DNA from: Catenulispora pinistramenti
GTDB lineage: Bacteria; Actinomycetota; Actinomycetes; Streptomycetales; Catenulisporaceae
Length of the DNA stretch: 47,499 nt
Direction of reading: 5' to 3'
NCBI RefSeq assembly: GCF_018274385.1
Contig: NZ_JAAFYZ010000062.1
Span: forward strand, 1 to 47,499
Shown: positions 18,584-27,254 of the stretch, piece by piece
How the letters are laid out: each line of letters opens with the position of its first letter
Numbering within the stretch: the stretch's first letter is position 1
Program-made: the position numbers and the translations under genes
The notes under the pieces: model-generated
What the model was told of the DNA's origin: nothing
Databases searched by the model: none
The model's input: only the letters and a program-made list of their open reading frames with translations

Positions 18584-20104
18584 TCACGCGTGGATGGCCG
18601 GGGCCGCGTCCGGATCCGCCGGGTCCGGCTTGCCGGCCTTCAGGATGAGGCCGCAGATGACGGCGCCGACACCGAAGATCGCGGCGGCCCACCAGAAGGC
18701 GACGACATAGCTGTGGATCGCGGCGTTGGCCTGCACGACCGGGCTGGCCGCGTTCTTGCCGACCAGGTAGCCGGTCAGCGCGCTGGCCGCCAGCGAGTTC
18801 AGCAGCGCGGTGCCGATCGAGCCGCCGATCTGCTGGGCGGTGTTGACCATGGCCGAGGCGACGCCGGCGTCGTGGGCCTCCACCCCGGAGGTGGCGGCGT
18901 TCATCGCCGGGGCGAAGATGGCGCCCATGCCGATGCCGACGAGCACGGTCGGGCCGAGGATGTTCGCGGCGTAGCTGGAGTGCAGTCCGATGCCGGTGAG
19001 CCAGACCATGCCGCCGCCGGCCACCAGCATGCCGACGAAGACCAGGATCTTGGCGCCCATCCGCGGGTAGAGCTGGGTGGTGCTGATGGTCGCGGTGATC
19101 ATCAGGGCGGCGACCATCGGCAGGAACGCCACACCGGTCATGACCGGGCTGTAGCGCAGGATCTCCTGCAGGTAGTAGTTCAGGAACAGGAAGACGCCGA
19201 ACATGCCGATGCCGGTGAGGAACATCGCCAGGTAGGACCCGCCGCGGTTGCGCTCCAGGATGACGCGCAGCGGCAGCAGCGGGTGCTTGGTGCGGGTCTG
19301 CCACCAGGTGAAGCCGGCCAGCAGGATCACGCCGGCGGCCAGGAAGCCCCAGGTGCCCGGAGCGCTCCACGGGTGCGACTCGGCGTTGGCGAAGCCGTAG
19401 ACGATGCCGAACAGACCGGCCGAGACCAGAAGAGTGCCGGGGATGTCGAGCGAGGGCCGGGCTCCGTCGCGCGCGTGCCGCGGGATCAGCACCGCGGCGC
19501 CGGCGATCGCGATGACGCTGATGCCGACGTTGACGAACAGCGTCCAGCGCCAGTTCAGGAACTCGGTCAGCACCCCGCCGAGCAGCATCCCGATCGCGGC
19601 GCCGGAACCGGCGATGCCGCCGAACACGGCGAACGCGGTGGCCCGCTCCTTGGCCTCGGTGAAGGTCGTGGACAGCAGCGACAGCGCGGCCGGGGCGAGC
19701 ATGGCGCCGGCCACCCCCTGCAGCGCGCGGGCCAGCACCAGCACCTCGAAGTTCGGTGCGGCACCGCCCAGCGCCGAGGCCGCGGCGAAGCCGACCAGCC
19801 CGATCAGGAACATCATCCGCCGTCCGATGACGTCGGAGACCCGGCCGAACAGCAACAGCAGACTGCCGAACGCCAGCGAGTAGGCGGTGACGATCCACTG
19901 CCGGTCGCCGTTCGAGAAGCCCAGCGCCTTCTGCGCGTCGGGCAGCGCGATGTTCACGATGGTGACGTCCAGCACGATCATCAGCTGCGCCAGCCCGATG
20001 ACGGCCAGGATGAGCCACCGTCTGGCGTGGTTCGGGTCGGTGTGAGCGGCGGGTGGGGCCAGGTCCGCCCGTGGTCCCGCGCCGGTCGTGTCGACATCTG
20101 CCAT
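18584..20104 (-). CDS. MFS drug:H+ antiporter, DHA2 (EmrB/QacA) family
   Basis: The 506-residue transporter has about 14 membrane segments. It carries the DHA2 marks LDVTIVNIALP in segment 1, WIVTAYSLAFGSLLLLFGRVSDVIGRR (the loop 2-3 GRxSDxxGRR motif) and GGIAGSGAAIGMLLGG (antiporter motif C). It should expel cationic or amphipathic drugs in exchange for protons. ATG 20104 is chosen because AGGGGACGAG lies just upstream; an ATG at 20122 lacks such a site. It is divergent from a TetR gene across a 160-bp region with several TGGAA/TTCCA sites, the usual repressor-pump layout. Confidence 0.93.
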   Translation of the reverse strand: MADVDTTGAGPRADLAPPAAHTDPNHARRWLILAVIGLAQLMIVLDVTIVNIALPDAQKALGFSNGDRQWIVTAYSLAFGSLLLLFGRVSDVIGRRMMFLIGLVGFAAASALGGAAPNFEVLVLARALQGVAGAMLAPAALSLLSTTFTEAKERATAFAVFGGIAGSGAAIGMLLGGVLTEFLNWRWTLFVNVGISVIAIAGAAVLIPRHARDGARPSLDIPGTLLVSAGLFGIVYGFANAESHPWSAPGTWGFLAAGVILLAGFTWWQTRTKHPLLPLRVILERNRGGSYLAMFLTGIGMFGVFLFLNYYLQEILRYSPVMTGVAFLPMVAALMITATISTTQLYPRMGAKILVFVGMLVAGGGMVWLTGIGLHSSYAANILGPTVLVGIGMGAIFAPAMNAATSGVEAHDAGVASAMVNTAQQIGGSIGTALLNSLAASALTGYLVGKNAASPVVQANAAIHSYVVAFWWAAAIFGVGAVICGLILKAGKPDPADPDAAPAIHA

Positions 20105-20135
20105 GGTTCTCGTCCCCTGCATCCGGAGAAGTCTT

Positions 20136-20207
20136 TTCCACTTACCCGACACGACTGTACCAGCCAAGTGGAATACTTGCCTCCACATGGAGACCGGTGT
20201 TCCATTT
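20136..20207. promoter_or_regulatory. Operator cluster between MFS and TetR genes
   Basis: TTCCACTT (20136-20143) and AAGTGGAA (20166-20173) are an exact inverted pair 22 bp apart. CTCCACATGGAG (20181-20192) is a palindrome, and TTCCATTT (20200-20207) follows. These lie between the two divergent starts and are good candidates for binding by the adjacent TetR protein. Confidence 0.5.
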
Positions 20208-20264
20208 AACTGCGTCTAAGATTCACCTGGACCGCCGGGAGGCGGCACGAGGCAGGAGCGAACA

Positions 20265-21017
20265 GTGACGAAAGCGAAGATCGAGGAGGCCGAACCCCAG
20301 GTGGCGACCGCCCCCGCACCTCCCACCGGGCCCGCGGCCCGCCCGCTGCGCCGGGACGCCGAACGTAACCGGCAGCTCATCCTGGACACCGCCAAGACGG
20401 TCTTCGCCCAACGCGGCCTGGAGGCGTCCCTCGATGAGGTGGCCCACGCCGCCGGCCTCGGCGTCGGCACCGTCTACCGCCGCTTCCCCAACCGCGACGC
20501 CCTGATCGACGCCCTCTTCGACGACATGCTCCACTCCATCGAGCGCATCGTCGCCGAGTCCATCGCCCTGCCCCGCGCCTGGGACGGCCTGATCCACTTC
20601 ATGAGCTCGATGCTGGAGTCCCAGGGCCGCGACAAAGCCCTGCGCGACCTGATGCTCTCCCGCCAGAAGTACCTCGACCAGTGCGAGCAGGACAAGGAAG
20701 AGGTCGTCCGCGAGACCGTCGAACCGGCCCTTTACGCCCTGATCGACCAGGCGAAGGCCCAAGGCGACCTGCGCCCGGACGTGGAGCCGACGGACGTGGG
20801 CGTACTGCTGATCTCAGCGGTCGGCGTGGTCGACTTCACCGCCCCGGCCGACCCCGACGTCTGGCGCCGCCACTTCACCATCCTGCTCGACGGCATGCGC
20901 GCCCGCCCCGCGGACGGGAACGCCGCGCTCACGCCCGCGGCGCTGGACGATAGGCAACTCGAGGTGTGCATGACCGGGTGGAAGTACGGGACGCGGGAGA
21001 CACCTCGGCGGCGGTAG
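20265..21017 (+). CDS. TetR-family repressor of the MFS pump
   Basis: The 250-residue protein has a ~30-residue Pro/Ala-rich lead, then the TetR HTH (RQLILDTAKTVFAQRGLEAS, VAHAAGLGVGTVYRRFPNRD, residues ~33-85) and a helical ligand domain. The GLGVGTVYRRFPNRDALI form is common in actinobacterial regulators of efflux pumps. GTG 20265 follows AGGAGCGAAC. It most likely represses the divergent DHA2 gene and itself, releasing DNA when a pump substrate binds. Confidence 0.92.
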   Translation: MTKAKIEEAEPQVATAPAPPTGPAARPLRRDAERNRQLILDTAKTVFAQRGLEASLDEVAHAAGLGVGTVYRRFPNRDALIDALFDDMLHSIERIVAESIALPRAWDGLIHFMSSMLESQGRDKALRDLMLSRQKYLDQCEQDKEEVVRETVEPALYALIDQAKAQGDLRPDVEPTDVGVLLISAVGVVDFTAPADPDVWRRHFTILLDGMRARPADGNAALTPAALDDRQLEVCMTGWKYGTRETPRRR

Positions 21018-21103: not shown

Positions 21104-21577
21104 CTATCGCGGCTCGTCCCCCGAATCGCTCGCGCCCACTGTCTCCCGGCGGATCAGGGCGCCGAGGAACCCGATCGGGGCGGTGAGCGCGGAGGTGTAG
21201 GCGGCACCGGCGCAGATCTCCACGACATCGCCGCGGCCGACCGAGCTGACCAGGCACAGCTGCTCGGCCACGAAGCGGCCCCAGGCTCGCCGGTAGTTCA
21301 CCGACTGCTGCGCGAAGGAGAAGGAATAGGGCGCGAGCAGGTCGTCGGGGTCGAGCAGCCCCCAGCGGCCGCTGACCACGAACCACGGCACACCGCTCGC
21401 CTCGGCCCGGGCCCGCCGATCTGCGAACTGCGGGCTGACATACAGGTCGCGGGCCACGGCGGGCTCGTTCAGCTGCGCCTTCCCACCTCCGACGAGGATG
21501 ACGGACGCTGCGGTCGACGAGGCGGGCGAGGGCTCGGCGAACGGTGTCGCGGATCCGGCACCGGGGGGCGTTGGCAT
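21104..21577 (-). CDS. DUF6884-like protein
   Basis: The 157-residue protein has the pattern of a YaaA-like family: VILVGGGKAQLNEPAVARDLY, QFADRRARAEASGVPWFVVSGRWGLLDPDDLLAPY, then a helical end. In relatives the first motif is often GCSKxKL; here the Cys is Gly. Function is unsettled; YaaA-type proteins relate to DNA or oxidative damage, but that link is only by family resemblance. The start ATG 21577 has no Shine-Dalgarno, and TAGCTATCT just upstream suggests a leaderless message. It converges with the TetR gene. Confidence 0.75.
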   Translation of the reverse strand: MPTPPGAGSATPFAEPSPASSTAASVILVGGGKAQLNEPAVARDLYVSPQFADRRARAEASGVPWFVVSGRWGLLDPDDLLAPYSFSFAQQSVNYRRAWGRFVAEQLCLVSSVGRGDVVEICAGAAYTSALTAPIGFLGALIRRETVGASDSGDEPR

Positions 21578-22674: not shown

Positions 22675-23511
22675 TCAGCCGCAGGCACCGGTCCCGGGCC
22701 CACCGAGCCGGAAGGAAGTCGCCGTCACCTGACCGGCGTCATACCGGCTCGGGCTGGTGGCGCTGACCGCCAGCTCCGGCGCGTCGGTCGTCCCGGCGAT
22801 GCGGTAGTCCCGTATCCAGGACGAGCCGCCTGTGCTGCCGAAGCGCCCGTCGCCCATCTGCGTGCAGCTCGGGGTGTCGGCGGTGTTCTCGGCCACCTCG
22901 CCGAACACCGACACCAACTGCGCACTCTGATACGTCCCGTTCCACAGCGCGCCCGGGAAGTACCCGACCGGCTGATCGCGGAAGAAGACCCACCAGTCGC
23001 CGCCGATGTTGCGGATGGCGAAGTGTGCCGCCTCGTTCGGACGCAGCGCCATGCCGGGCCGGATCCGGTGCGAGACCTGCACGAATCCACAGCCGTTGTA
23101 GCAGCTCTCCTGACCGTCGACCCAGTGGTAGACGAACAGGTGCGGCTTTGCGTCGCCGTTGAGTTCGGGATCGACGGTCCAGCCGATCTCGACGGTCGAG
23201 GTCCGCGCGGTGTTCTGGAGCGCGATCTCCTGCAGGCTGTGCTCGCCGGTCTGCGCCGGGTTGACGATCGGCGCGTCGACCTTCATCAGAACGCTGACGC
23301 CGGTGGTATTCGTCCACTGATGGCCGCTGACGTAGTCGTAACACGCGCCGTACCAGCAGACGGGACCGCTGTTGGCCGCGGCCGACGCCGCTGTCGGCAC
23401 CGCCGGCACGGCCACCCCCGAGCCCGCGACGGCACCGGCCGGAGCACCGACCAGACTCGCCGAGAAGAGAGCAAGCGCCGAGACAAAGCCGACGCGCCAC
23501 TTAACAAACAC
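22675..23511 (-). CDS. Secreted neprosin-like (DUF239) peptidase, copy 2
   Basis: The 278-residue protein from GTG 23511 (TTG 23523 is the alternative) has a signal peptide (RVGFVSALALFSASLVGAPAGA) and a CWYGACYDYVSG motif. The neprosin core includes EIGWTVDPELNGDAKPHLFVYHW, CYNGCGFVQVS, GDWWVFFRDQPVGYFPGALW and VSVFGEV. Neprosins are glutamic peptidases that cut after proline. The two glutamates, Glu108 (VEIGW) and Glu205 (FGEV), sit at places matching the catalytic pair by motif. The start lies inside the end of the preceding paralogue, so the two are co-translated. It probably acts outside the cell, with a disulfide in CTQMGDG. Confidence 0.82.
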   Translation of the reverse strand: MFVKWRVGFVSALALFSASLVGAPAGAVAGSGVAVPAVPTAASAAANSGPVCWYGACYDYVSGHQWTNTTGVSVLMKVDAPIVNPAQTGEHSLQEIALQNTARTSTVEIGWTVDPELNGDAKPHLFVYHWVDGQESCYNGCGFVQVSHRIRPGMALRPNEAAHFAIRNIGGDWWVFFRDQPVGYFPGALWNGTYQSAQLVSVFGEVAENTADTPSCTQMGDGRFGSTGGSSWIRDYRIAGTTDAPELAVSATSPSRYDAGQVTATSFRLGGPGTGACG

Positions 23512-24304
23512 CAGGACCCCCAAGAGTGAAAGACGTCCCGGTCACCGACCCGTAGTCATACGAGTCCGGATCGCTGGCCGTGACAGTGAATTTCGGCTGA
23601 TCAGCCGACCCCATGAGCTGGTAGTCGGAGATCGACGACGCCGCCGTGCCCTGACTGCCGAAAACGCCGTCGCCCATCTGCGTGCAGCTGGGCGCTTTGT
23701 CCGCGGCCACCTCGCCGAACGCCGACACGATCTGAGCGCTGGTGAAGGAACCGCCCCACTCGGATCCGGGGAAGTACCCGAAGGCGACGTCGTTGTAGTA
23801 CGCCCACCAGTTGCCCTCGTAGTACCGAAGCGCGAACGCTCCGCTCGTACCGGGGGTCAAAGCCATTCCGGCCCGGACCGTCGAAGACACTTGAACGAAT
23901 CCGCAGCCGTTGTAACAAGTCGACTGCCCGTTTATCCAGTGATAGACGAACAGATGCGGCTGATAGTCCCCGTTGGTCCCCGGATCGACACTCCACCCGA
24001 TCTCGATGGTGTCCCCGGAAGCCGTACCGCTAGACGTCTGTAGCGAAAGCTCTTGCAGGGAATGACCGTCTGCCGCGACGCCCCCAGGCGCTTCCTGCTC
24101 CATCGTCACCGAAGCGCCGGTGGTATTCGTGTACTGCCGACCGGTGACATAGCTGAAGCAGGACCCGTACCAACACGTTGCCGCCTGAGCACTGCCGGCA
24201 GGCAGTACGACGACCGTGCCGGCGGCCACCACTGTCGCCGCGGCGGCCGCACCGACAGTGCCTATTCGAGTTCTGAGATGGCCGCGAAAAGCTCCAAAAG
24301 GCAT
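23501..24304 (-). CDS. Secreted neprosin-like (DUF239) peptidase, copy 1
   Basis: The 267-residue paralogue has a signal peptide (VGAAAAATVVAAGTVVVLPAGSAQA) and CWYGSCFSYVTGRQYTNTTG. The core motifs are EIGWSVDPGTNGDYQPHLFVYHW, CYNGCGFVQVS, GNWWAYYNDVAFGYFPGSEW and VSAFGEV. Candidate catalytic glutamates are Glu101 and Glu198, with the same 97-residue gap as in copy 2. The pair clearly arose by tandem duplication and has since diverged, mostly in the first third. It follows the proline-iminopeptidase-type gene by 50 bp on the same strand, so one transcript could carry all three. Confidence 0.83.
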   Translation of the reverse strand: MPFGAFRGHLRTRIGTVGAAAAATVVAAGTVVVLPAGSAQAATCWYGSCFSYVTGRQYTNTTGASVTMEQEAPGGVAADGHSLQELSLQTSSGTASGDTIEIGWSVDPGTNGDYQPHLFVYHWINGQSTCYNGCGFVQVSSTVRAGMALTPGTSGAFALRYYEGNWWAYYNDVAFGYFPGSEWGGSFTSAQIVSAFGEVAADKAPSCTQMGDGVFGSQGTAASSISDYQLMGSADQPKFTVTASDPDSYDYGSVTGTSFTLGGPGVC

Positions 24305-24354
24305 GCGTGTACCTCGAAACGAAGTCGATGTGAACCGGACTGTGAAGCGAATAG

Positions 24355-25650
24355 TCAGCGCGCCGCGCGCGCCATACCCAACAACCGATCAAGCACATCC
24401 GTGCCACTGGATGTGAGGCCGTCATGCTCGTGCTCATCGGTCACACGAGTAGTCAGCCCCCGAATCGCATCGGCGGTCGCGAGCGAATGCTTGGTGTCGA
24501 CGTACAGATCGTCCGTATAGACCGTCGCGAACACCGGGACGCTGTTTCCCGCCAACACGCCGACGTCATACAGCGGCCCCCAGTCCTCACGCCTGGCAAT
24601 CGCCTCGGCCACATCCCGCAGCGGACGCAACGCCGGATCGGTCCGGAAGTGCCAGGGGTGGATCGTCTCGCCGGTGAACAGCACCGGAGCCGCCGTCTGC
24701 GCCAGCACCTGCTCGGCGTCGAAGCGCGGGAACTCCTTGCGCACCCGGCTGGCGGCCCAGGCCGTGGCCTCCGGACCCTGCGCGTAAGTGGCCTCGTGCA
24801 TCACCGCGTACAAAGGCCGTTCGGCAAACGACAGCGCCGACTCGACCTGCCGCTGAAAGCGATCCGAAAGCTCAGGCCGCCGCGCTGCGGTCGGCGCCTG
24901 CACGAATGCGTCCTCCAGCAGGTAGTGCAGCTTCTCCGCACCGTCGGTGGTCCCGAGCACGATCCCCAGCGACTGAAACGCCTCGACCGTCAGCAGCGTC
25001 CCGTCCGGCAGCACGGTCTCGTGCTCCCGCAGGTGCTCGGCGATCGCCCGCGCCGTCTGCACGTCCTCCGGATGCCGGTGGTAGAACAACGCGTTCTTGT
25101 CCTCCATCCGCGGATAGGCAGCGCGGTATACGTCGTCCGCGTCCCCCTCCAGCGTCGGCAGTCCGCCGGTGATGAAGACCTCTGCGAGCCCTTCGGGAGC
25201 CGTCGAAAGGTAGCTGACCGCACAGAACCCGCCGAAGCTCTGACCCAGCACGCTCCAAGGAGCGCCACCGGTCAACCGCCGCCGGATGAACTCCGCGTCG
25301 CGCACGATCGAGTCCGCCCGGAACGCCGCAAGGTACTCAGCCTGCTGACGAGCGTTCCCGCGCGGCGGCAGCGTCTGGCGCGTGGCCGGCGTGGAGCGGC
25401 CGGTGCCGCGCTGGTCGAGCAGCAGCACCCGGTAGTCCTTCAGCGCGCGGCTGATCCAGCCGCTCGCCAAGTCGGCCGGAAGCGGACGAGGCGATCGGTG
25501 CCCGGGCCCGCCTTGCAGGTACACCAGCCACGGCCGCGTCTCGTCCGCGGTGACCTCGCGGGCGTAGACCTCGATCTGCTCCCCGCCCGGGCGGTCGTGG
25601 TGCAGCGGAACCGTGAACAGGTGGTCGGTCAGCCGGATCCCCGATGGCAC
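24355..25650 (-). CDS. Alpha/beta hydrolase, proline iminopeptidase type (S33)
   Basis: The 431-residue protein shows GGPG (47-50), DQRGTGRS (79-86) and the nucleophile elbow GQSFGG with Ser138. This is the S33 prolyl aminopeptidase pattern in which an N-terminal proline is released from peptides. The catalytic Asp and His lie in the last third (His in DEHEHDGL). The length of ~430 is usual for this actinobacterial subgroup. There is no signal peptide, so it works on imported peptides. It heads the neprosin operon and is divergent from an HTH-TPR regulator. Neprosin cutting and iminopeptidase trimming fit together for proline-containing peptides. Confidence 0.88.
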   Translation of the reverse strand: MPSGIRLTDHLFTVPLHHDRPGGEQIEVYAREVTADETRPWLVYLQGGPGHRSPRPLPADLASGWISRALKDYRVLLLDQRGTGRSTPATRQTLPPRGNARQQAEYLAAFRADSIVRDAEFIRRRLTGGAPWSVLGQSFGGFCAVSYLSTAPEGLAEVFITGGLPTLEGDADDVYRAAYPRMEDKNALFYHRHPEDVQTARAIAEHLREHETVLPDGTLLTVEAFQSLGIVLGTTDGAEKLHYLLEDAFVQAPTAARRPELSDRFQRQVESALSFAERPLYAVMHEATYAQGPEATAWAASRVRKEFPRFDAEQVLAQTAAPVLFTGETIHPWHFRTDPALRPLRDVAEAIARREDWGPLYDVGVLAGNSVPVFATVYTDDLYVDTKHSLATADAIRGLTTRVTDEHEHDGLTSSGTDVLDRLLGMARAAR

Positions 25651-25669
25651 AGCACCTCACCCCCCTAGT

Positions 25670-25693
25670 TAAATGAAGCAGTAACTCCATTTA
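25670..25693. promoter_or_regulatory. Operator-like inverted repeat between the peptidase operon and the HTH-TPR gene
   Basis: TAAATGAA (25670-25677) and TCCATTTA (25686-25693) match over 7 of 8 positions around 8 bp. It is AT-rich in a GC-rich setting and lies 20 bp from the peptidase start, so a regulator bound here would block that promoter. The divergent XRE-type protein is the natural candidate. Confidence 0.5.
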
Positions 25694-25847
25694 GAGTGAT
25701 GGTTAAGCTAGGGCACTCAGCCGGATGCCGCAAGACCCCCGCCACGGCTTCGTGGTAGGGAGTGCGTGGTAGGAGTCCGTTGAGCAGCCATGTTTCGGTC
25801 GGAGTCCGAGATCGGAATCCGAGAGAGGGAAGAGGAGGAGCGGCGCG

Positions 25848-27254
25848 ATGCCCCTGTCCGGCGACGGCCAACAGACGCAAGGCCAGATCGGGACCCGCCT
25901 CCAGGAACTGCGCACGCGGCACGGCCTGACCCAGCGCGCCTTGGCAGAACCCGGATACACCGCGGCCTATGTCTCCACGTTGGAAGCCGGCAAGGCCCGT
26001 GCCTCGGAGGCGGCGCTGCGTTACTTCGCCGAGCGATTGGCGGTCAGCTATGAGGAACTGGCGACCGGCATACCCGCGGGGCTGCGTGCGGAGATCCGTG
26101 AGGGCCTGGTGGAGGCGAACGCGGCGGCAGACGACGGCCGCGCCGCCGAAGCCGAGGCGCTGTTGGCCGACCTGCTGGATCGGGCCGCGCGCAACGACGT
26201 CCCCGACCTGGTCGCCGAGGTGCGTGTCACGCTCGGCTCGTTCCTGCTCCGCCGAGGCGAGCTGACCGCCGGCCGGGACCAGTTCGAGCAGGCCGAGGCG
26301 CTGTTGGCCGACCAGCCGCTGTTGTCGCGGGTGCGCGCCATCCGCGGCCGCGCGACCGCGCACTACCTCGAGGGCGACGTCCGCTACTCCTGCTATCTGC
26401 TGGAGAGCACTATCAGCGAGCTGAACGGCGGCGGGCTGCCGGATCCGGCTTCGCTGGTGCTGCTGTACGCCGCGGTCATCGGCCCCTACCTGGAGCTGGG
26501 CGCGCTGGAGCGGGCCACGAAGGCCGCGACGCTCGCCTTGGATCTGGCGGCCCGCGTCGCCGATCCGGTCGCGGTCGCCACGCTGCACCGCTCGGTCGCC
26601 CGGACCCTGGCCGCCGGCGGCCGATTCGACGAGGCCGAGGCCGCGCTGGTCAAGGCACAGGACGTGTATCAGCAGTGGGAGATACGCGCCGAACTCGCGC
26701 AGTGCCATTGGATGCGCGGCTATCTGTACGCCCAGCACGAACGCCTCGCGGACGCCGAGATCGAGCTGCGTACGGCCGCGAGCATGCTGCGCGCCGCGGA
26801 CGCCGCGTTCTACGCCGTGCAGGTCGAGGTCGAGCTCGCGGACGTCCGCTGGCGCCTGGGACACGCCGCCGAAGCCGGGGAGCTGCTGACGCGGCTGGTG
26901 GCCGACCTCGGTCCGGGACACGGCGCGGTGCACGCCGCGGCGGCGCACCGGCTACTGGGCCTGATCAGCGAAGGCGCCGAGGACGTGGCGGCGGAACGGC
27001 ACTACCGCACGGCGATCGAGCTTCAGCAGGATGCCGATGTCACCGGCGACCTGGCCGACACCTCGCGGCTGCTCGGCGATCTGCTCGACCGGCAGGGGCG
27101 GACGCGCGAGGCGGTGGCGGCGTATCGCAACGGGCTGATGGGGATGGCGCGGCCGGGCACGACGACACTCGGCGCCGCGCCGCTTCCGCCGCCGGTGATT
27201 CCGGCGCTGGATGCGGTGCATCGGGCTGTGCACGGTGCGACGAGCGAGGGCTGA
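25848..27254 (+). CDS. XRE-type HTH regulator with TPR domain
   Basis: The 468-residue protein has an N-terminal XRE helix-turn-helix (IGTRLQELRTRHGLTQRALA, YVSTLEAGKARASEAALRYFAERL; residues ~14-70). About ten TPR-like helix pairs follow (for example AAEAEALLADLLDRAARND and DEAEAALVKAQDVYQQWE). This layout is that of peptide-binding regulators (RRNPP-like) and of many actinobacterial development regulators. The sensed molecule is unknown. ATG 25848 follows GAGGAGCGG. It is divergent from a peptidase operon, so regulation of, or by, processed peptides is an inference worth testing. A 51-bp duplication follows the stop. Confidence 0.87.
   Translation: MPLSGDGQQTQGQIGTRLQELRTRHGLTQRALAEPGYTAAYVSTLEAGKARASEAALRYFAERLAVSYEELATGIPAGLRAEIREGLVEANAAADDGRAAEAEALLADLLDRAARNDVPDLVAEVRVTLGSFLLRRGELTAGRDQFEQAEALLADQPLLSRVRAIRGRATAHYLEGDVRYSCYLLESTISELNGGGLPDPASLVLLYAAVIGPYLELGALERATKAATLALDLAARVADPVAVATLHRSVARTLAAGGRFDEAEAALVKAQDVYQQWEIRAELAQCHWMRGYLYAQHERLADAEIELRTAASMLRAADAAFYAVQVEVELADVRWRLGHAAEAGELLTRLVADLGPGHGAVHAAAAHRLLGLISEGAEDVAAERHYRTAIELQQDADVTGDLADTSRLLGDLLDRQGRTREAVAAYRNGLMGMARPGTTTLGAAPLPPPVIPALDAVHRAVHGATSEG

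Follow-up and report, generated by a model that had tools for sequence, protein, structure and literature searches.

A divergent gene arrangement built around a predicted transcriptional regulator was analyzed in a 47,499-nt stretch of DNA from Catenulispora pinistramenti (contig NZ_JAAFYZ010000062.1, termed the window), which is one contig of an 11.46-Mb genome of the genus Catenulispora. The regulator carries a helix-turn-helix (HTH) domain followed by tetratricopeptide repeats (TPRs), and it faces a putative prolyl aminopeptidase (PAP) and two neprosins across a 197-bp gap. The closest named relative among the matches listed is C. pinisilvae, with a regulator identity of 99%. A first-pass annotation of the window had named the regulator, the hydrolase, both neprosins and a palindrome, all of which are confirmed here; the positions of these genes and of the intergenic features are:

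22675-23523, minus strand: neprosin 2, 282 aa, TTG start as called; PF03080, E 1.2e-31
23501-24304, minus strand: neprosin 1, 267 aa; PF03080, E 8e-26
24355-25650, minus strand: S33 alpha/beta hydrolase of the PAP type, 431 aa; Pfam PF00561 (Abhydrolase_1)
25663-25713, no strand assigned: intergenic control region with nested inverted repeats CCCTAGTTAAA/TTAAGCTAGGG and TAAATGAAG/CTCCATTTA, from an inverted-repeat search
25666-25671, minus strand: TAACTA, possible mirror -10-like hexamer for the aminopeptidase-neprosin unit, read from the sequence
25682-25711, plus strand: family-wide element TAA-N6-TTA-N9-TTAANNTAG, present in exact form at 108 of 177 distinct loci and at a single exact place in its own genome
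25704-25709, plus strand: TAAGCT, possible -10 box (TAANNT) for the regulator, at the right end of the element
25848-27254, plus strand: HTH-TPR regulator, 468 aa; Pfam HTH_31 and TPR_12

The hydrolase is followed after 50 bp by the start of neprosin 1, which is overlapped by neprosin 2 over 23 bp. Matches to PF03080 scored 110 bits for neprosin 2 and 91 bits for neprosin 1 (cut-off 22), and neprosin 1 was aligned with solved neprosin structures at E 4.1e-14. Along this structure alignment, counted by hand, Glu101 and Glu198 of neprosin 1 lie opposite E188 and E297 of neprosin (catalytic numbering from a passage of PMC9343461), and alignment of neprosin 2 to neprosin 1 places Glu112 and Glu209 at the catalytic positions. 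By these alignments, both window neprosins retain the two predicted catalytic glutamates. Pfam (E up to 1) reported only PF03080 and no activation (pro) domain for either protein, so the bacterial neprosins resemble the catalytic domain of the plant enzyme, not its zymogen. Neprosin 1 begins with a signal-like segment, and both proteins are putatively secreted, as judged by eye from their N-termini. A signal peptide is not evident in the hydrolase. Its best PDB match was AT3g61540 (8jgn, E 4.9e-112, residues 5-428), followed by proline iminopeptidases, and its nucleophile elbow is a GQSFGG motif at residue 136. This GxSxGG-type elbow and the full-length alignment to a solved member fit a predicted large-type S33 prolyl aminopeptidase. 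The prolyl aminopeptidase models of NCBIfam gave weak matches under their cut-offs (TIGR01249, 32.8 bits versus 259.75); TIGR01249 is 307 positions long and thus describes the short-type enzyme, to which the window PAP does not conform.

Homologs were searched for in 245 genomes of the order using cut-offs of E ≤ 1e-20 for the regulator, E ≤ 1e-60 for the hydrolase and E ≤ 1e-10 for the neprosin 1 query, and matches were found in 157, 211 and 9 genomes, respectively. The neighborhood that the first-pass annotation had proposed as a module is conserved in other actinomycete genomes, with regulator, PAP and neprosin kept together in seven of ten Catenulispora genomes (own included). Six of the seven have two neprosins and one was detected in G023; the remaining three genomes are 77, 81 and 90% complete. 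All nine neprosin-bearing genomes of the order have at least one neprosin copy beside the regulator, and in two genomes outside the genus (G198 and G232) the regulator lies directly opposite a neprosin, without the hydrolase. Across the class, PF03080 was detected in 2 of 296 genomes, one of them that of the window, and because the family is this rare the pairing of regulator and neprosin is not owed to a common gene. Further named loci with a neprosin opposite the regulator belong to Solihabitans, Streptacidiphilus, Streptantibioticus and several Streptomyces.

The regulator of other Streptomyces is 53-58% identical and has other divergent genes. Locus counts were made on 150 listed matches from the 157 regulator-bearing genomes; the divergent side within 4 kb holds an M64 peptidase and/or the PAP-type hydrolase in 45 of these, and a neprosin is divergent in another three. 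The layout in G048, G053 and G135, with the hydrolase first and M64 second, is that of the window with M64 replacing the neprosins. Among 192 fetched loci, a non-random sample in which neighboring-M64 loci were fetched less often, the divergent partner was hydrolase plus neprosin in 9, neprosin in 13, M64 in 38 (one context, L140, whose contig equals that of L169 in length, rests on a 35-codon remnant), hydrolase plus M64 in 4 and none of these in 128. Fourteen loci repeat an already counted regulator, leaving 178 distinct loci. The window's own genome has a lower-scoring M64 match elsewhere (G000:C12), not at the window locus.

A phylogenetic tree was built from 176 of the 192 regulators, after sequences that were identical or shorter than 400 residues were dropped. 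In it, a single well-supported branch of 19 rows took in 16 of the 17 that bear a neprosin (its remaining three being labelled as without these partners), and the peptide branch described below was nested among M64 rows. The minimum number of label changes was 5 for M64, 6 for neprosin alone, 2 for hydrolase plus neprosin and 16 for the first, regular-expression-based peptide labels (81 loci), which missed many loci detected later. The partner label is strongly clustered on this tree, and the rows are therefore not independent.

Most loci without a neighboring peptidase have a different divergent gene, a small open reading frame (ORF), usually 50-75 residues long, in which a hydrophobic segment ending in AANAGPA is conserved (consensus YARGVAAAVVAVAALVLAANAGPA). 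It was found in 114 of the 128 fetched loci of this class (106 of 120 distinct), each time (114 of 114) on the strand divergent from the regulator. The profile was supplied by 78 of the 114 loci, leaving 36 matches outside training, and a search with it gave no match in 64 peptidase loci (0 of 58 distinct) or in downstream controls. Positive loci are L119, L128-L139, L142, L144-L146 and many of L166-L286 (Streptomyces). Selection was analyzed in the 107 of 114 matches that could be anchored: the core is under purifying selection (pN/pS 0.23 over 120 close pairs), with mismatch at the three codon positions of 0.26, 0.17 and 0.44. The tail that follows the hydrophobic core is variable and has merely 4-5 residues in 8 of 107 loci. 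This conserved small secreted-peptide gene is a candidate for a signalling peptide, and its divergent position in Streptomyces relatives makes a dedicated peptide ligand possible for the family. No such gene was seen by inspection in the 197-bp gap of the window, where the first-pass annotation had likewise reported no candidate gene for a signal peptide. The small gene was also compared with M64 genes in five genome pairs, four of them alignable. DNA similarity stood out in G044, where a score of 80 compares with a shuffle maximum of 38; scores for G201, G187 and G091 were not above the shuffle maximum. Since similarity is clear only in G044 and the core profile matches none of the 64 peptidase loci, origin as a truncated M64 gene is no more than a possibility.

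The intergenic region of the window holds a palindrome (25670-25693, 9-nt arms, 89% complementarity) enclosed by a second inverted repeat (25663-25673 and 25703-25713). The central block of 25663-25713 is identical in five of seven genus members, altered yet recognizable in G023 and G009, and recognizable in other neprosin loci too; the flanks are more variable. The operator-like palindrome noted between the divergent units in the first-pass annotation proved to be part of a conserved cross-species element, TAA-N6-TTA-N9-TTAANNTAG. Counts were made in 177 of the 178 distinct loci, one upstream region being too short. The exact element was found in 7 of 7 hydrolase-plus-neprosin loci, 9 of 11 neprosin loci, 86 of 106 small-peptide loci, 5 of 37 M64 loci, 0 of 3 hydrolase-plus-M64 loci and 1 of 13 others, and its loosest form in 134 of 177, including 27 of 37 M64 loci. 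It was found in none of twenty dinucleotide shuffles per locus and never downstream. In 20 whole genomes the exact element occurred once or twice in 14 and was absent from 6, with no occurrence of the reversed control in any. Scanning the intergenic region for the sigma-70 consensus returned no promoter, and the -10 boxes listed above are thus proposed from the conserved element.

Four peptide-type genomes have a second element site, and it lies at an M64 gene, 16-21 kb away in G044, G201 and G187 and on another contig in G091. In G011 the second site is at a second regulator copy; this copy is disrupted at L092 (G011:C47), where it stands beside a second-locus neprosin with the element intact. 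Occurrence in trans was evaluated with all 27 M64 genes of at least ~160 bits that are not adjacent to the regulator, from a list of 66 genomes (12 genes in genomes with the regulator and 15 in genomes without; G112 was excluded, its regulator being on the same stretch as the M64 gene). Where the regulator is present, 8 of 12 genes have the exact element at the gene start and one more has a loose form (G188, ~3.6 Mb from the regulator). None was found at the non-adjacent M64 genes of G058, G225 and G233; the regulators of the last two fall on a branch (L106, L143) that has no element at its own loci either. In genomes without a regulator match the element was found at 0 of 15 genes, nor anywhere in the stretches fetched around them (134 kb with both strands counted). 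The comparison gave a Fisher p of 5e-5 (2e-4 with exact sites only), values that are approximate because the compared genomes share ancestry. Two other candidate targets were rejected: PAP genes away from the regulator had the element at 0 of 23 loci (part of the best 30 matches among 211 genomes), and the palindrome pattern had no match in the stretch fetched for the neprosin paralog G000:C73. That paralog (L094, G000:C73:24106-24813) and L093 (G005:C124) have a start that by eye is lipoprotein-like and a Ser/Thr-rich linker.

An AlphaFold model of the regulator (mean pLDDT 87.4, 50 aligned sequences) has an XRE-type HTH at residues ~11-73, 18 helices forming nine TPRs at 79-434 and a disordered, proline-rich C-terminal tail. 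An HTH followed by a multi-TPR superhelix, as in RRNPP(A) receptors, is present according to Pfam and to the 18 post-HTH helices of the model. Profile matches over the HTH were PlcR (2qfc, E 1.8e-7) and ComR. Bacterial structures aligned by VIA-align included Rap-Phr (Z 26.1), Rap F (25.8), NprR (25.7; 5dbk, 348 residues) and NprR-NprX (23.0; 4gpk), in a table limited to Foldseek's own matches, where a missing family is uninformative. The first-pass annotation had called the protein an XRE-HTH/TPR regulator and pointed to peptide-binding regulators of the RRNPP kind. The predicted fold and the nearest bacterial matches, Rap and NprR, agree with this; membership is not claimed, because other TPR proteins score equally high or higher.

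In TPR folds the A helices line the groove. Conservation was measured in 42 of the 50 regulators, retained at under 90% identity, and was greater in A helices (0.79) than in B helices (0.71; p 0.004 by a Mann-Whitney test), with 28 and 14 invariant polar or aromatic residues, respectively. Both main branches (neprosin and Streptomyces) conserve 72 A-helix positions, of which 3 differ between the branches. Groove-side helices that are conserved and nearly identical between branches favor one ligand class family-wide over diversifying pheromones. As a separate observation, the C-terminal tail (window 27150-27200) has a stretch that is predicted to be disordered yet is conserved in the family, the proline-rich PGTTTLGxAPxPPP (PGTTTLGPAP in the modelled tail), which could serve as a built-in ligand of the TPR groove.

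Neprosin, M64 and PAP have three unrelated folds, and all recur opposite one regulator. Catenulispora and Streptacidiphilus are acid-living genera. Plant neprosin is inactivated above pH 5 according to the abstract of PMC9343461, and the neprosin layout in acid-living genera would fit an acid-active enzyme. A section of PMC9147577 lists the M64 IgA peptidase (Pro-Val bond), neprosin and S33 prolyl aminopeptidase all among proline-cutting enzymes, and PMC12402451, in the part available, describes an M64 enzyme with a preference for sites after proline; by analogy, the Streptomyces M64 enzymes are probably proline-cutters. The chain from neprosin to iminopeptidase, as first proposed, holds in part. 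Neprosin products end in proline, so PAP, which takes an N-terminal proline, would come into play only at Pro-Pro or once other trimming has taken place, and a digest-and-trim chain needs that step.

Other genes of the window lie beside the module in part of the genus. An MFS transporter and a TetR regulator (18584-21017) remain there in L084-L087, so synteny reaches past the module in these genomes. A DUF6884 protein (21104-21577) adjoins the module in the closest relative, L084, and was unmatched in the other fetched stretches of the genus.

Comparison shows the regulator, the upstream element and a divergent gene for a putatively secreted peptidase (neprosin or M64) or small peptide as one recurring unit within the taxonomic order, which in the window consists of PAP plus two neprosins opposite the regulator, and a dedicated regulator-peptidase switch is well supported as a prediction from sequence. 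Very probably the regulator controls the divergent unit through TAA-N6-TTA-N9-TTAANNTAG. That it senses a peptide is slightly favored, a grade lowered a little because of the near match to MalT given below. The best explanation as stated is a putative peptidase switch whose ligand is a digestion product or some other report on the peptidase, and it has, in our judgment, about an even chance of being correct. The regulator would bind the element as a dimer and repress both its own gene and the divergent operon. Outside the cell, the secreted neprosins would cleave protein on the C-terminal side of proline, the fragments would be imported, and the cytosolic PAP would strip N-terminal proline. 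The regulator would be set by a peptide that reports either that digestion has succeeded or that the peptidase itself has been secreted, with binding in the groove of the nine TPRs acting as the switch. The same ligand class may serve across the family, because conservation is higher in the presumed groove helices than in the outer ones, and these groove helices hardly differ between the branches. From the earlier proposal of digesting, trimming and sensing a product, the conserved module, the proline-linked enzymes, the conserved element and the receptor-like predicted fold stand, and the direct handover from neprosin to PAP stands only for Pro-Pro sites.

Several observations weigh against the peptidase switch. 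VIA-align gives its highest ranks to two eukaryotic proteins, APPBP2 (Z 29.9) and, above it, an anaphase-promoting-complex subunit (Z 32.0); domain III of the sugar-sensing regulator MalT (Z 24.9) comes within ~1 of NprR, and TPR superhelices bind many partner types. The hydrolase-plus-M64 loci of Streptomyces (0 of 3) and 10 of 37 M64 loci are without the element even in its loosest form. The element was derived from the same loci in which it was later counted, the trans M64 sites excepted; the trans comparison covered M64 matches of ~160 bits or more and also suffers from the shared ancestry noted above. The absence of the element at the 23 PAP loci away from the regulator means that PAP is not a fixed member of the system. 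Counting was done largely on related genomes. The degenerate palindrome pattern, allowing ≤2 mismatches, occurs at one place in the 11.46-Mb genome and so does its reversed control, so that this count alone is not above chance; what raises the palindrome above chance is the recurrence of the layout in the genus and the conservation of the intergenic element across species. A regulator relative in G391 (37% identity; L307, G391:C2:782000-793000) faces a secreted protein that by eye resembles a chitin-active oxidase/chitinase fusion, and the wider family may thus be untied to proline.

A different account would make the regulator a member of an actinobacterial peptide-pheromone (quorum-sensing) family, with the small peptide of most Streptomyces loci as precursor and a window regulator that lost or never had it and hears other peptides. 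A small ORF divergent in 106 of 120 distinct peptidase-free loci, purifying selection on its core, the same element upstream in 86 of 106 small-peptide loci and the resemblance of the predicted fold to NprR and Rap all speak for this account. However, the conserved part of the ORF is signal-peptide-like and its tails are variable and, in 8 of 107 loci, very short, so that a conserved mature peptide is not evident; the window's gap has no visible counterpart, and the groove seems undiversified, in contrast to typical pheromone receptors. We regard a pheromone family as doubtful. It overlaps with the readings of control through the element, of peptide sensing and of the switch as stated, which also overlap with one another. 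The promiscuity of TPR folds, the MalT score near that of NprR and the distant relative opposite a chitinase-like protein would fit an ordinary regulator acting locally on a secreted hydrolase, with TPRs that bind a protein partner or a non-peptide ligand and a proline link that is coincidental. This is unlikely, given that the unrelated folds neprosin, M64 and PAP share proline cleavage in the passage of PMC9147577 cited and all recur opposite the regulator. Inherited synteny without functional linkage would account for the strong clustering of the partner label and the many non-independent rows, but not for a divergent partner that changes as regulator and element persist, nor for an element that marks M64 genes away from the regulator in genomes that have it, against 0 of 15 in genomes without the regulator; this explanation is very improbable.

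For Streptomyces and relatives, we tentatively consider an NprR-NprX-like intracellular peptide-signalling family, in which a former local controller of a secreted proline-cutting protease may read a protease-linked peptide. In one Streptomyces branch a peptide-only gene may have replaced the protease gene at the locus, with the protease, if retained elsewhere in the genome, remaining under the same regulator, a replacement suggested by the G044 peptide gene, which resembles the signal-peptide segment of a non-adjacent protease (in one of four aligned genomes). The signal-peptide segment with its AANAGP core could itself be the ligand, as a means of monitoring secretion, and the Catenulispora neprosin loci would be the protease-linked form.

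Among the papers listed by full-text searches of open articles, judged by title and the start of the abstract, no description of the regulator, the element or the small peptide was found. Intracellular HTH-TPR peptide receptors are described from Firmicutes in passages of PMC10075063 and PMC9765709, and actinobacterial signals are typically small molecules according to part of PMC10075063. Peptide sensing in Streptomyces is directly testable with this regulator, which has a defined DNA element, a small number of exact sites in each genome and three proline-cutting partners that replace one another. If the proposal is true, it would show how a protease's own controller could become a signalling receptor. 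The locus also brings neprosins from bacteria, which may be acid-active, into an enzyme family that a passage of PMC9343461 describes as studied against gluten peptides.

The enzymes of the locus have characterized counterparts. With plant neprosin (the glutamic prolyl endopeptidase of Nepenthes) the window proteins share PF03080 and, by alignment, both catalytic glutamates; they differ in that an activation domain is not reported for the bacterial proteins. Neprosin orthologs are termed plant-restricted in a passage of PMC9343461, a statement that bacterial PF03080 members require to be qualified. The window PAP aligns with the large-type S33 prolyl aminopeptidase AT3g61540 (8jgn) over residues 5-428, but it heads a unit with putatively secreted neprosins, and its PAP activity is predicted. 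M64 IgA-type metallopeptidases take the place of the neprosins opposite the same regulator in part of Streptomyces, whereas they are absent at the window locus.

Among known regulators, PlcR of PlcR-PapR matches the profile better than any other natural protein, in the HTH region, and has the same HTH-TPR architecture. PlcR is shorter, at 293 residues, and its regulon has many targets, in contrast to the 0-2 exact sites per genome found here in 20 genomes. The closest likeness is with NprR-NprX, which shares an HTH and about nine TPRs and on whose NprR the predicted fold superposes. NprR of Bacillus controls a secreted neutral protease; the present regulator likewise faces a putatively secreted protease, and a small secreted-peptide gene adjoins it in Streptomyces relatives. 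The differences are that the present regulator is actinobacterial, has 15% identity to NprR and binds peptide only putatively, that no fetched locus has both the small-peptide gene and a neighboring peptidase, the window being without a visible peptide gene, and that the partners here are neprosin, M64 or PAP. These comparisons suggest that the system is an actinobacterial, partner-swapping variant of NprR-like protease control, apparently new.

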